From Collimonas silvisoli (lineage in GTDB: Bacteria; Pseudomonadota; Gammaproteobacteria; Burkholderiales; Burkholderiaceae_D), in assembly GCF_018305005.1 (NCBI RefSeq), contig NZ_JAGQEG010000037.1, forward strand, positions 1 to 51,760: a stretch of 51,760 bases of DNA. Direction: 5' to 3'. Shown here piece by piece: positions 30,582 through 50,351 of this stretch. Position 1 is the stretch's first letter; the number at the start of each line of letters is the position of its first letter. Under the pieces are notes generated by a model that saw nothing but the letters and a program-made list of their open reading frames with translations, did not search any database and was not told the DNA's origin. Position numbers and translations under genes: made by a program.

Positions 30582-30740
30582 GGGAATCATCTTGTTTTGC
30601 AAGAAAATTACTGAGTAATCAGCATTAAATGAAGTTTATTTTTGATTTTAGGTCAAATATGTATTGTGGGCAGGGTGGTTTTTCTTTGTCGCTGCGGCTA
30701 TCAAACTGCATGGCGTCAAACTTCAAATAGGAAAATCGTC

Positions 30741-31946
30741 ATGCCACTCGCACTTTGGGCGCTTACACTTAGCGCTTTTGCCATCGGTACGACAGAATTC
30801 GTTATCGTTGGCCTTATCCCAACTATTGCCGCCAGTCTTGGGGTTTCCGTTCCTTCGGCCGGCCTGCTGGTCAGTCTCTATGCTCTGGGCGTTGCGGTGG
30901 GTGCGCCGGTACTTACAGCCTTGACTGGCCGCGTGCCGCGCAAGCACCTTTTGCTGGGCTTGATGGCCTTGTTTACTATCGGCAACCTGGTCGCATGGAT
31001 GGCGCCGGGATACGAAGCGTTGATGGCTGCACGCGTGCTCACAGGGCTGGCGCATGGCGTGTTCTTCTCGATCGGATCGACCATCGCCACCAGCCTGGTG
31101 CCGAAAGAAAAGGCGGCCAGCGCAATTGCGCTAATGTTCACCGGGCTGACAGTCGCCTTGGTCACCGGCGTGCCGCTCGGCACGTTCATCGGCCAGACAT
31201 TTGGCTGGCAATCGACTTTCCTGGCGGTATCGCTGCTTGGCGTGATCGCGTTTATCGGCAGCTGGATCCTGGTGCCGAACAATATTGCCAGCAGCAAGCC
31301 GGCATCCTTGCTGACTCAGGCTGCCGTCCTGAAGAAACCGCGGCTGCTGCTGGTGTATGCGATCACCGCCCTGGGGTATGGCGGTTCCTTCATCGCCTTT
31401 ACCTACCTGGCGCCGATCTTGCGGGAAATCTCCGGTTTTTCAGCATCCACCGTCAGCCTGGTGATGCTGGTGTACGGCGTCTCGGTGGCGTTCGGCAATA
31501 TCTGGGGCGGCAAGCTGGCCGATAAAAAGGGACCGATACGCGCATTGCAAATCGTGTTTGTCTTGTTGGCGGCAGTCTTGTTCGTGCTGGCGTTTACTGC
31601 GCCCAATCCTTGGCTGGCGGTCCTGACCGTACTGGCGTGGGGTGCTTTCGCCTTCGGTAATGTGCCGGGCTTGCAAGTGTATGTGGTGCAACAGGCGGAA
31701 CGCCATGCGCCGCGTGCGGTGGATGTCGCCTCGGGTCTGAACATCGCTGCATTCAATGTCGGTATCGCCTTGGGCGCCTGGGGCGGCGGCCTGATCGTCA
31801 GCCATCTCGGTTTGATGGCAACCCCTTGGATCGGCGCTATCGTGGTGCTGGCGGCACTGGGCCTGACCACGCTGGCAGGGCGGCTGGACCGGCGCGACGG
31901 CATCGCGCCCATCGTCAGTTCGCAACACGCGGTTGCCATGCATTGA
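30741..31946 (+). CDS. MFS transporter, AraJ/YdhP-like efflux permease
   Basis: A 401-residue membrane protein with 12 predicted helices, starting MPLALWALTLSAFAIGTTEFVIVGLIPTIA... in the style of the DHA1 drug/sugar efflux group (the GTTEFV motif in helix 1 is typical). AGGAA lies 9 bp before ATG 30741; the frame upstream is not conserved-looking. It probably exports a small molecule; the substrate cannot be told. It is divergent from the alkylation operon and sits upstream of the aroG leader region without an obvious terminator between. Confidence 0.85.
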   Translation: MPLALWALTLSAFAIGTTEFVIVGLIPTIAASLGVSVPSAGLLVSLYALGVAVGAPVLTALTGRVPRKHLLLGLMALFTIGNLVAWMAPGYEALMAARVLTGLAHGVFFSIGSTIATSLVPKEKAASAIALMFTGLTVALVTGVPLGTFIGQTFGWQSTFLAVSLLGVIAFIGSWILVPNNIASSKPASLLTQAAVLKKPRLLLVYAITALGYGGSFIAFTYLAPILREISGFSASTVSLVMLVYGVSVAFGNIWGGKLADKKGPIRALQIVFVLLAAVLFVLAFTAPNPWLAVLTVLAWGAFAFGNVPGLQVYVVQQAERHAPRAVDVASGLNIAAFNVGIALGAWGGGLIVSHLGLMATPWIGAIVVLAALGLTTLAGRLDRRDGIAPIVSSQHAVAMH

Positions 31947-32078
31947 TGAGGTAGCCAGAGGCTTTGGCTGGCCGGCATTGTCTTGTTGCACATAAAGAAT
32001 GTGGTAATACGGGCCTTGCCAAACTTCTGGAAATCCTGCACTATTGGTCTTGATTTTAATAATCCTTTACTTAAAACC

Positions 32079-32159
32079 ATGTCTTTCGCACGCGCTTATT
32101 TCTTTTTTTACTTTAGCTATTCCAGCCCCACGGCGGTGAAAAGCGGTAAGCGTTCGTAA
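32079..32159 (+). CDS. Aromatic leader peptide of the aroG attenuator
   Basis: A 26-codon reading frame, MSFARAYFFFYFSYSS followed by PTAVKSGKRS. Seven of residues 7-14 are Phe or Tyr (YFFFYFSY). It is followed by a terminator hairpin 24 bp after its stop codon and then by aroG. This is the arrangement of pheL-type leader peptides: stalling at Phe or Tyr codons when charged tRNA is scarce would favour an antiterminator. No strong ribosome site precedes the ATG. The reading frame and its composition are seen; the function is inferred. Confidence 0.8.
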   Translation: MSFARAYFFFYFSYSSPTAVKSGKRS

Positions 32160-32182
32160 GTAAAGAGCAAACCGAAATTTCT

Positions 32183-32211
32183 AAAAAACCGCCAGCGATG
32201 GCGGTTTTTTT
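32183..32211 (+). terminator. Attenuator terminator upstream of aroG
   Basis: A perfect 12-bp stem (32183-32194 and 32199-32210, loop GCGA) ending in a run of seven T, 33 bp before the aroG start codon. GGCGGT at 32132-32137, within the leader peptide frame, is complementary to ACCGCC (32188-32193) in the 5' arm and could form the competing antiterminator. Confidence 0.85.
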
Positions 32212-32243
32212 ATACCCAGTCAATTTTGAGCCAGGAGAAAAAC

Positions 32244-33311
32244 ATGCTACGCACCGATGATTTGCGCATACGAGAAATGAAAGAATTAGTTCCACCGTCA
32301 CATTTGATCCGTGAATTCGGCTGCTCCGAGAAAGTGGCCGAAACGGCCGCCAATTCGCGGATTGCCTTGCATCGCATCTTGCATGGCCAGGATGACCGCC
32401 TGATGGTGGTGATCGGACCCTGCTCGATCCACGATACCAAGGCTGCCATGGAATACGCACATCGTCTGGTAGGCGAGCGCGAGCGCCTCAAGGGCGAACT
32501 GGAAATCGTGATGCGGGTCTATTTCGAAAAGCCGCGCACCACGGTCGGCTGGAAAGGCCTGATCAACGATCCGTACATGGATAACAGCTTCCGCATCAAT
32601 GACGGCCTGCGCATGGCGCGCGAGCTGCTGTTGAACATTAACGAACTGGGTCTGCCGGCCGGCACCGAATTCCTGGATGTGATCAGCCCGCAATACATTG
32701 CCGACCTGATCAGCTGGGGTGCGATCGGCGCCCGTACCACCGAATCGCAAGTGCATCGCGAACTGGCTTCCGGCTTGTCATGCCCGGTCGGTTTCAAGAA
32801 CGGCACCGACGGTAACATCAAGATTGCGGTGGACGCCATCAAGGCCGCCTCGCAGCCGCATCACTTCCTGTCGGTGACCAAGGGCGGCCACTCGGCGATC
32901 GTGTCGACCAACGGCAATGAAGACTGCCATATCATTTTGCGCGGCGGCAAAGCGCCGAATTACGATGCCGCCAGCGTCGACGCCGCTTGCAAGGATATTG
33001 CCAACAGCGGCCTGGCGTCGCGCCTGATGATCGATGCTTCGCACGCCAATAGTTCGAAGAAACCGGAAAACCAGATTCCGGTATGCGCCGATATCGGCCG
33101 CCAGGTGGCTGCCGGCGACGGCCGTATCGTCGGCGTGATGGTTGAATCGCATCTGATCGCCGGCCGCCAGGATCTGGTGCCGGGCAAGGAACTGGTCTAT
33201 GGCCAGTCGGTCACCGACGGTTGCATCAACTGGGAAGAAAGCGTGACGCTGCTGGAAGGCTTGGCAGAAGCGGTAAAACAACGCCGTTTGCTGAATGCCA
33301 GCCCAGCTTAA
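32244..33311 (+). CDS. aroG: 3-deoxy-7-phosphoheptulonate (DAHP) synthase, class I
   Basis: First step of the shikimate pathway: joins phosphoenolpyruvate and erythrose 4-phosphate. The 355-residue protein matches the E. coli AroF/G/H type in length and motifs: VIGPCSIHD, FEKPRTTVGWKGLINDP, GARTTESQVHRELASGLS and the metal-binding DASHANS. GGAGAAAAAC precedes ATG 32244. Which amino acid inhibits it cannot be read off with certainty; the Phe/Tyr-rich leader suggests Phe or Tyr control at the transcript level. Confidence 0.96.
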   Translation: MLRTDDLRIREMKELVPPSHLIREFGCSEKVAETAANSRIALHRILHGQDDRLMVVIGPCSIHDTKAAMEYAHRLVGERERLKGELEIVMRVYFEKPRTTVGWKGLINDPYMDNSFRINDGLRMARELLLNINELGLPAGTEFLDVISPQYIADLISWGAIGARTTESQVHRELASGLSCPVGFKNGTDGNIKIAVDAIKAASQPHHFLSVTKGGHSAIVSTNGNEDCHIILRGGKAPNYDAASVDAACKDIANSGLASRLMIDASHANSSKKPENQIPVCADIGRQVAAGDGRIVGVMVESHLIAGRQDLVPGKELVYGQSVTDGCINWEESVTLLEGLAEAVKQRRLLNASPA

Positions 33312-33326
33312 GGTGACCGCTAAAAA

Positions 33327-33418
33327 CTCCGTCGTCCCCGCGAACGCGGGGATCCAAATTACTGCCTAAAATGGATTCCCGCGTGCGCGGGAATGACGCA
33401 ATGGAAGTTATTCGAGGT
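33327..33418 (-). repeat. REP-like double-hairpin repeat, copy 1 (92 bp)
   Basis: Contains GTCCCCGCG-AA-CGCGGGGATC and ATTCCCGCG-TG-CGCGGGAAT hairpins, bounded by TTCGAGGT. Its reverse complement matches 48803-48894 over the same 92-bp length with few differences. The CCCGCG-N2-CGCGGG core is like the dispersed dRS3/REP-type repeats of many proteobacteria. Confidence 0.85.
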
Positions 33419-33441: not shown

Positions 33442-34092
33442 TCAAAAGCGCTTGGTCAACACCATCATCTCGCCCTCGCGCCGCATCTCGGTGCGGTTCA
33501 GGAACGACATGCCCAGCAGCGCGAACGGCAGCCCGGCCTCTTGCACCAGGGCGTCGACCTGATTCATTTCAATATCGCCGATCTTGACGGTATTCAGCTT
33601 GACCATGTACGCCGGCGCCGCGCCGTTGGCGGTATTGACCATGGTCATCCTGCCCTTTTTGTAATCGACGCCCAACCGGGTTGCGTCCGAAGCCGACAGT
33701 GCGATCATGGTGGCGCCGGTATCGACCAGCATGGTCATCATGGCGCCGTTGATCTGGGCCTGTGCGACGAAATGGCCTTGCGGATTGACTTTCAGGGTAA
33801 CGCTGGAAGAGGCGCCCGGGGCGCTGCGGCTGACGTATTCGCCGATGCCGATGACTTGCCGCTTGCCTTTGACCTCCAGCGTTGCGGTGGCGCTGTTGGC
33901 TTCCACCAGCTTCGCATCGTCGGTGATTTTGCTGCCGACTGCGTAGGTCTTGGGCGAGGAGCCGTCAATCACCAGCACCGCCTTGCCCGGGAACAGGCCG
34001 ACCACGCCGATATCGGAAGCTTGTGCCGCAGCAGTAATGCAAGCAAGTAAAAACAGGCTGGTGACGCGGGTGACTAAAGCAAGCGGGCGCAT
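33442..34092 (-). CDS. Periplasmic retropepsin-like aspartic protease (TIGR02281-like)
   Basis: A 216-residue protein with an N-terminal signal peptide (hydrophobic 9-20, cleavage probably after AQA near 25). The C-terminal half is a single-lobe aspartic protease of clan AA with D124 in MLVDTGATMIAL and the partner motif LLGMSFLNR. Such proteins act as dimers; the substrate is unknown. The middle part (35-100) may be a small beta-rich domain. No obvious operon partner. Confidence 0.85.
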   Translation of the reverse strand: MRPLALVTRVTSLFLLACITAAAQASDIGVVGLFPGKAVLVIDGSSPKTYAVGSKITDDAKLVEANSATATLEVKGKRQVIGIGEYVSRSAPGASSSVTLKVNPQGHFVAQAQINGAMMTMLVDTGATMIALSASDATRLGVDYKKGRMTMVNTANGAAPAYMVKLNTVKIGDIEMNQVDALVQEAGLPFALLGMSFLNRTEMRREGEMMVLTKRF

Positions 34093-48802: not shown

Positions 48803-48894
48803 ACCTCGAATAAAGCCTGTTGCGTCATTCCCGCGAACGCGGGAATCCATTTTAATCACCAACTTGGATCCCCGCGTTCGCGGGGATGACAGAG
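48803..48894 (+). repeat. REP-like double-hairpin repeat, copy 2 (92 bp)
   Basis: Starts ACCTCGAATAA and contains ATTCCCGCG-AA-CGCGGGAAT and ATCCCCGCG-TT-CGCGGGGAT. It matches the reverse complement of 33327-33418 over all 92 bp with few changes. It follows fahA and adjoins the decayed XRE copy. Confidence 0.85.
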
Positions 48895-48934
48895 TTTGTA
48901 GTGGTAGTCTCGATGAGAAATTCCAAGCGAATTG

Positions 48935-49054
48935 CTCATTGTGATTCATCTTGGCGTTTGTCGACATCTCGTCGATTCCCGCGACTACGGCTAGTCGTTC
49001 CTGGGACAAACCGCCCTCTAATCTCACACTTTTAAGCTTTTTTGCTGGCGACAT
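48935..49054 (-). pseudogene. Truncated XRE-type regulator (decayed copy of the gene at 49983-50285)
   Basis: From ATG 49054 the frame reads MSPAKKLKSVRLEGGLSQER and then LAVVAGIDEMSTNAKMN, closely matching the first 35-40 residues of the intact regulator (MSLAKRLKEARLEAGLSQER, LGVVAGIDEMSASARMN). After that the similarity stops and the frame runs on through unrelated sequence into the REP-like repeat. The promoter region upstream (49060-49120) is also recognisable but its operator palindromes are damaged. It is a partial duplicate on the other side of hicAB. Confidence 0.75.
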
Positions 49055-49138
49055 TCTTAACTCTAAACACTAAAATAGTCTCGATATTTTATTCATGTTC
49101 GCTAAGAAATGATTAGCATTGAGCACTTTGATAAGTGG

Positions 49139-49982: not shown

Positions 49983-50285
49983 TTAATTGTCGTAAATATC
50001 TTCAACTGCAGCGAGCACGCGCTTTTTGTCGGCTTGCTTCAAGCGATGAAACATCATCAATAATTTGGCGAGATCATCATCCGCCGCATAGAAATATGCG
50101 GCCGGCACATTCAGTACAGAAGCAAGACGCTCCACCATGGAAAGATCCGGGACATGTTTCCCGCGCTCATACTGATTCATTCTGGCGCTTGCCGACATCT
50201 CGTCGATTCCCGCGACTACGCCTAGCCGTTCTTGGGATAAGCCGGCCTCTAACCTAGCCTCTTTTAGCCGTTTTGCTAGCGACAT
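49983..50285 (-). CDS. XRE family transcriptional regulator
   Basis: A 100-residue single-domain Cro/CI-like protein: MSLAKRLKEARLEAGLSQERLG (helix-turn-helix about 5-40), RMNQYERGKHVPDLSMVERL, then a helical tail LLMMFHRLKQADKKRVLAAVED. GAGG lies 7 bp before ATG 50285. Two palindromic sites are directly upstream, and the SDR gene is divergent from it. It probably represses itself and the SDR gene. Confidence 0.88.
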   Translation of the reverse strand: MSLAKRLKEARLEAGLSQERLGVVAGIDEMSASARMNQYERGKHVPDLSMVERLASVLNVPAAYFYAADDDLAKLLMMFHRLKQADKKRVLAAVEDIYDN

Positions 50286-50295
50286 TCTGTGCCTC

Positions 50296-50351
50296 AAAAA
50301 CTAAGATAGTCTTAGTTTTTGATTGACGTTACACTAAGGAATGCTTAGTAT
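50296..50351. promoter_or_regulatory. Twin operators and SDR promoter between XRE gene and SDR gene
   Basis: Operator 1: AAAAACTAAG (50296-50305), ATAGT, CTTAGTTTTT (50311-50320), a perfect 10-bp inverted repeat. Operator 2: ACTAAG (50333-50338), GAATG, CTTAGT (50344-50349), same half-site and spacing; centres 33 bp apart. TTGACG (50323-50328), 17 bp, TAGTAT (50346-50351) is a likely promoter for the SDR gene, overlapped by operator 2. Operator 1 is close to the XRE start. Confidence 0.7.

Follow-up and report, generated by a model that had tools for sequence, protein, structure and literature searches.

How is the entry into the shikimate pathway controlled in Collimonas silvisoli? In the window (the whole stretch of DNA that was analysed, 51,760 nucleotides), the gene of 3-deoxy-7-phosphoheptulonate (DAHP) synthase, aroG, is preceded by a short open reading frame crowded with Phe and Tyr codons and by an intrinsic terminator. 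Judged from the sequence, this arrangement is very probably a ribosome-mediated transcription attenuator of the trp/pheA type, which would control DAHP synthase as the enzyme of shikimate entry.

Parts of the element in the window

A preliminary description of the locus had named a 26-codon frame with YFFFYFSY, a perfect 12-bp terminator with a U-run between this frame and aroG, and a GGCGGT inside the frame that is complementary to the 5' arm of the terminator. All three were confirmed (Table 1).

Table 1. Features of the aroG leader region, with positions in the window
Feature	Position	Strand	Basis or detail
Probable sigma-70 promoter, TTGCCA-17 nt-CACTAT	32016..32044	+	Pattern search; probable transcript start near 32051
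Leader peptide frame, 26 codons, MSFARAYFFFYFSYSSPTAVKSGKRS	32079..32159	+	ATG at 32079, TAA at 32157-32159; kept in relatives
Control codons, Tyr-Phe-Phe-Phe-Tyr-Phe-Ser-Tyr	32097..32120	+	Frame reading and shuffle test
Antiterminator 5' strand GGCGGT, inside leader frame	32132..32137	+	Complementary to ACCGCC, 32188-32193
Predicted antiterminator hairpin, GGCGGU:ACCGCC and inner helices	32132..32193	+	-16.0 kcal/mol, z -2.47; equalled by 2 of 200 shuffles
Intrinsic terminator, 12-bp stem, GCGA loop, U-run	32183..32211	+	Fold; covariation on alignment A2
aroG, DAHP synthase, the gene proposed to be controlled	32244..33311	+	NF006723, TIGR00034

The 26 residues of the leader peptide include five Phe and three Tyr and no Trp. 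The frame is short and repeats codons for end products of the pathway, since seven of the eight control codons specify Phe or Tyr, and these are conserved. A leader frame with seven aromatic residues in eight codons was found in none of 2000 dinucleotide shuffles of positions 31951-32243. As a genome-wide argument, the rarity of a run of six consecutive Phe/Tyr codons failed: it occurs at three places in the genome, against eight for the backward control pattern. Since such a run by itself is no rarity in the genome, the weight of the leader rests on its position and conservation. No clear Shine-Dalgarno sequence was seen 5' of the leader in the window.

The terminator separates the leader from the gene. 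Its perfect stem, AAAAAACCGCCA-GCGA-TGGCGGTTTTTT, occupies 32183-32210 and is followed by a further T; 32 bases lie between position 32211 and the ATG of aroG. The predicted fold has an energy of -16.3 kcal/mol (z -5.2). A simple consensus scan of the window for promoters and terminators listed neither. The terminator was missed because the scan requires unpaired T residues behind the stem, and nearly the whole T-run is taken up by pairing here. The promoter pattern, which was derived from the sequence itself, matches once in the window against 0.01 expected; a similar pattern, chosen after looking, lies 5' of 50 of 76 leaders among the best 80 of 588 loci and in none of 76 control stretches inside aroG.

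An antiterminator excluding the terminator is suggested by complementarity and fold in the window and by covariation between families, not by covariation in the window's own cluster. Its 5' strand starts 14 nt downstream of the last aromatic codon, counted from the first base of this codon. Over the elements compared, the inner pairing of the antiterminator is weak on average (mean z -0.9), and in the near-identical locus L003, with the outer arms fixed, it is not significant (p 0.18). Positions 32079-32276 as a whole fold no better than shuffles (z -0.68, with 47 of 200 as good), and no clear protector hairpin was found in the window (z -0.19). Such a hairpin is predicted in 26 Burkholderia-type sequences (-6.7); in Oxalobacteraceae it is unsupported, the alifold value of 56 sequences of this type being -0.03.

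Conservation, covariation and distribution

The preliminary description called for a comparison of the upstream regions of relatives. This comparison speaks for it on the whole: the Phe/Tyr codons are conserved and the antiterminator covaries, although the covariation is found between families and the core of the nearest relatives is invariant. The closest loci were taken as the best 80 of 588 AroG relatives; they include Collimonas, Janthinobacterium, Duganella, Massilia, Herbaspirillum, Herminiimonas, Undibacterium, Rugamonas, Burkholderia, Paraburkholderia, Caballeronia and others; some are metagenome bins. An aromatic leader frame starting with ATG and a CCGCC/GGCGG terminator are present in 78 of these 80, and the two exceptions (L012 and L050) apparently have another gene directly upstream. 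The leader of the Burkholderia type is MSAKFYFYFFWHLRPLADREG or a near variant. In three of the 78 (L062, L072 and L080) the leader frame is shifted. These belong to Ca. Burkholderia humilis, Burkholderia sp. E7m39 and Caballeronia megalochromosomata, and the shift lies near a homopolymer run, which could reflect a real loss or a sequencing error. A perfect-stem search 5' of 80 further aroG places found 11, and a looser search 16; in these 80 places no stem was found in families including f5, f6, f13, f17, f20, f24, f25, f32, f38, f42 and f46.

Is the aromatic run a coding frame, or could T-rich DNA or an RNA signal take its place? In all 24 distinct leaders of the Burkholderia type with LADREG, minor-allele changes in the aromatic codons fall at positions 1, 2 and 3 in 1, 0 and 30 cases. 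The T-rich signal was ruled out because these codons vary almost solely at third positions. The His/Tyr codon next to them varies at position 1 in 8 of the 24. In the Oxalobacteraceae leaders (42 of 55, in one phase) the corresponding changes are 50, 38 and 56, and a leaning to position 3 is confined to the three codons that precede AGC (2, 3 and 11). Over 133 distinct leaders, Phe is encoded by TTT 442 times and TTC 175 times, Tyr by TAT 138 times and TAC 153 times, and Trp codons number 60. The preliminary description, which named Phe and Tyr codons, is to be corrected in that 50 of 132 distinct elements also have Trp before the antiterminator strand.

For the analysis of pairing, 132 distinct elements were kept from 142 sources; L012, L050 and L120 (no terminator found), L014 and L119 (pairing skipped) and five duplicates were dropped. 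Between families, strand and arm change together, as in CTGGCGG/CCGCCAG, CCGGCGG/CCGCCGG and GAGGCGG/CCGCCTC. With 22 cluster representatives, the pairing of a leader strand with its own terminator arm has an energy of -18.2 kcal/mol, compared with -16.4 for permuted and -12.0 for shuffled partners (permutation p 0.0002). The own pairing beats the swapped mean in 16 of the 22 clusters and is weaker in six, including that of the window (L003, -12.6 vs -15.6) and the main Burkholderia cluster (L057).

In alignment A2, pair 59-146 of the antiterminator is UA in 20 rows and CG in 15, with both sides changed in 16 rows, and at the shared base the pair of the terminator is AU in 33 and GC in 19. Of 500 shuffles, which ignore relatedness, none reached the paired cells of the antiterminator, one its changed cells and one its score. 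Shuffling gives as many covarying pairs in 420 and as many pair types in 320 of the 500 cases, which is no excess for the antiterminator, and a slide by one column still yields 17 changed cells vs 25. The terminator stands out more clearly than the antiterminator in cells and score, but its covarying pairs are not in excess (67 of 500 shuffles). Within alignment A1 (the nearest relatives) there is no covariation, the core pairs being invariant and uninformative. Between families the leader strand covaries with the terminator arm; in the window's own cluster this is not visible.

The element was also searched for with covariance models blind to genes. Model R1 was built from 57 elements (the window's and 56 from the best 80 of 588 loci). 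Among 300 genomes of the order, 62 were matched at E <= 0.01, with one match each, and 58 of the 62 matches are directly followed by a DAHP synthase gene (43 of the 47 loci that were read, 14 more by coordinates, and L253 in genome G175). Of the four without DAHP synthase downstream, L205, L215 and L217 seem to be ordinary terminators or chance matches. The fourth, L212 (G117, C20:48229-48367), is attenuator-like, its leader being MVTFSVVYNVYFYWYRSSGGAKGC and its stem altered to GGCGGC with GCCGCC; the gene behind it encodes a 204-residue protein with no Pfam family above the cut-off, which is not a DAHP synthase.

Model R2 consisted of 61 diverse elements, and its training overlapped part of the places that it later matched. 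It matched 85 of the 300 genomes at E <= 0.001. At E <= 1.3e-5 all 76 matches are upstream of DAHP synthases, by coordinates or reading, R2 being partly trained on these; at this strict cut-off the covariance model finds the element without regard to genes. Among the 15 weaker matches, the one in G210 precedes a DAHP synthase, as judged by coordinates, and none of seven that were read does. L244, L246-L249 and L254 seem to be ordinary terminators or chance matches, and L256 (G291) is a terminator before a DAHP synthase with no aromatic leader listed.

The 76 matches span 14 of the 51 family labels of the order. As 233 of the 300 genomes have a match to this DAHP synthase, the element is common, yet by no means general in the order; divergent members may escape both models. 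Identity to the DAHP synthase of the window is 62-100% among the enzymes encoded downstream of the elements, the low end including a form with a different N-terminus.

A search of the class (369 genomes, at least four of them from the order) gave matches in 38 genomes at E <= 0.01. Four strong matches lie outside the order (G311, G463, G571 and G572, E <= 7.7e-11); in all four, an aromatic leader accompanies a DAHP synthase that is 68-71% identical. The preliminary description spoke of one lineage that would couple shikimate entry to charged tRNA; the putative switch is not confined to one lineage, as it is present in 14 of the 51 families sampled from the order and in these four genomes. The weak class matches that were read are mostly unrelated terminators: L225, L226, L228, L230-L235 and L237 seem to be ordinary terminators or chance, as does L229, which precedes a leuA-like gene. 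Another weak match outside the order, L227 (G480), has an open frame from ATG through ACFFYFSFFSPALGG, a CCCCCAG/CTGGGGG stem and a DAHP synthase 34% identical, and this genome perhaps has the same layout.

Proposed mechanism and alternatives

In the proposed mechanism, a short transcript would start near 32051 and its leader would be translated. When charged tRNA-Phe and tRNA-Tyr are ample, the ribosome would pass GGCGGU and mask this strand, so that the terminator could form and aroG would be off. With either tRNA uncharged, the ribosome would stall on the aromatic codons, its front edge just before GGCGGU. The freed strand would then pair with ACCGCC and capture the 5' arm of the terminator, and RNA polymerase would continue into aroG.

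The spacing is consistent with this course. Over the 132 elements, with the antiterminator strand picked by best complementarity, the last aromatic codon precedes this strand by a median of 14 nt (range 5-21), which is also the distance in the window. The median distance from the end of the strand to the stop codon is 11 nt (quartiles 7 and 19, range 4-88), and in the window it is 19 nt. A ribosome covers about that much RNA on either side. With this ribosome size, a stalled or terminating ribosome could free or mask the strand, the 19 nt of the window being near the limit. Since antiterminator and terminator of the window are predicted to be equally stable (-16.0 and -16.3 kcal/mol), the outcome should depend on the ribosome; over the 132 elements the medians are -21.3 for the antiterminator and -16.1 kcal/mol for the terminator. 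The off state of the window would be less clear than that of the Burkholderia type, because its 19 nt are near the edge of the terminating ribosome and no clear protector hairpin is seen. In Burkholderia-type leaders this hairpin would hide the antiterminator strand when no ribosome is stalled; in the Oxalobacteraceae leaders it is not seen either.

The same RNA parts and a conserved short peptide would also serve a TnaC-like arrest, in which the nascent peptide would sense free Phe or Tyr in the ribosome and not the charging of tRNA. Such an arrest is very improbable, as only the aromatic run of the peptide is kept between families, and the codons of the C-terminal TAVEKR, LADREG, PAGGGR and LAEG lie in the RNA strand pairing with the terminator. 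The frame could further be a small gene with an ordinary terminator, aroG being expressed from another promoter independently of the leader. This would agree with the consensus scan, which lists no promoter, and with the window's cluster, whose own pairing is no better than the swapped one. However, in 14 of 51 families the element has kept its position ahead of DAHP synthase genes, and its strand and arm covary across families, which is needless for a plain terminator, and we regard an unconnected small gene as very improbable.

Action in trans by the terminated leader RNA or the peptide is compatible with attenuation and could be added to it. Its argument is precedent, the leader peptide peTrpL of Sinorhizobium meliloti (in the available text of PMC7298713). 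Nothing in the sequence calls for such an action, the peptide is kept between families only as an aromatic run, and action in trans is extremely improbable here. For ribosome-mediated attenuation, the basis is the parts of the element, their conservation, the covariation between families and the spacing; from these, stalling and read-through are inferred, and either Phe or Tyr may count more. It appears well supported to describe the element as a classical attenuator that is conserved and widespread and belongs to a known kind.

Known systems and the surroundings of aroG

In the E. coli trp attenuator, a stalled ribosome governs a mutually exclusive antiterminator and terminator. The element of the window would be alike in this; the trp attenuator differs in its Trp codons and its place before the trp operon, and its protector hairpin is not clear in the window. 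The pheA leader of E. coli carries Phe codons without emphasis on Tyr, and it governs pheA. The likeness is a Phe-rich leader with attenuation by Phe-tRNA charging (RF01859 Phe_leader; described in the available text of PMC11802643). The window scores 30.5 bits with RF01859, below the gathering score of 55; at gathering scores, Rfam gave no attenuator family in 14 relatives and no match whatever in the window.

The preliminary description held that attenuation is not standard for aroG. In E. coli, the DAHP synthases are controlled by TyrR and TrpR (available text of PMC11802643 and PMC5343134). Attenuation of a DAHP synthase has a precedent in Corynebacterium glutamicum aroR-aroF (Neshat et al. 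2014, via the available text of PMC11802643 and PMC4046766) and a prediction in Acholeplasma (PMC8632094). In C. glutamicum a leader with Phe-Tyr-Phe lies 5' of the DAHP synthase gene aroF, and Phe limitation raises transcription. Compared by description, this system differs in belonging to an Actinobacterium, in its leader with FYF only and in its reported response to Phe and not to Tyr. The Acholeplasma motif (uORFC-13-1) is likewise a predicted uORF with one or more Phe codons and a terminator 5' of aroF; it is a prediction only, compared here by description, with 24 representatives in Acholeplasma and environmental sequences. According to the available text of the same source, attenuation of E. 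coli aroF was hypothesised as well.

A literature search that covered mostly freely accessible main texts found no description of this Burkholderiales element; an earlier prediction is possible. The terms aroG, aroF and DAHP are absent from the main texts of a survey of premature terminators (PMC2965389) and of a survey of attenuators in Actinobacteria (PMC1262725), and PMC10175445 has no such terms. In the available texts, putative attenuators linked to tyrA are listed from a website (PMC1173090), an RNA-seq study of B. cenocepacia gives 82 short 5' UTRs (PMC5688073), and PMC12125101 treats trpL only.

The attenuator is perhaps undescribed in these bacteria, its mechanism being classical and its distribution broad; its spread and its place at DAHP synthase seem little described. 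We tentatively propose, with slightly less than even confidence, an undescribed order-wide family of DAHP synthase attenuators with mixed Phe/Tyr and often Trp codons (FYFWF, FFWFWF, FYFWYYF). Such a family would jointly read the charging of aromatic tRNAs and set shikimate entry by RNA alone, unlike the TyrR/TrpR and isoenzymes of E. coli. Attenuation itself is textbook. Here a classical attenuator would precede the gene of the common entry step, and since its codons stand for two or three end products, several signals could be summed in a single RNA. For a large group of environmental bacteria, this offers a concrete way in which the first step towards aromatic amino acids may be controlled, and one that can be tested.

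The window's aroG is an equivalog match of NCBIfam (NF006723, 593.6 bits vs a cut-off of 568), and it appears to stand alone because a long frame that follows it (33442-34092) lies on the opposite strand. The genome has a second DAHP synthase (L002, C174:34254-35252; Pfam DAHP_synth_1, 52% identical), 5' of which neither R1 nor R2 has a match. Upstream of it, GAGAATGATTTGCAATTG resembles a Fur box; because of this, the second enzyme may serve iron-linked or secondary metabolism. Upstream of the leader, an MFS transporter (30642-31946) resembles efflux proteins of the Cmx/CmrA type, below the family cut-off (306.8 vs 400 bits). A REP-like paired palindrome of 68 nt, CCCGCGAACGCGGG ... CCCGCG..CGCGGG, is present in two copies (79%; 33330-33397 and 48823-48890), one of them directly 3' of aroG. 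The window also has a direct repeat of 166 nt (48934-49099 and 50165-50330), whose copies are 78% identical.
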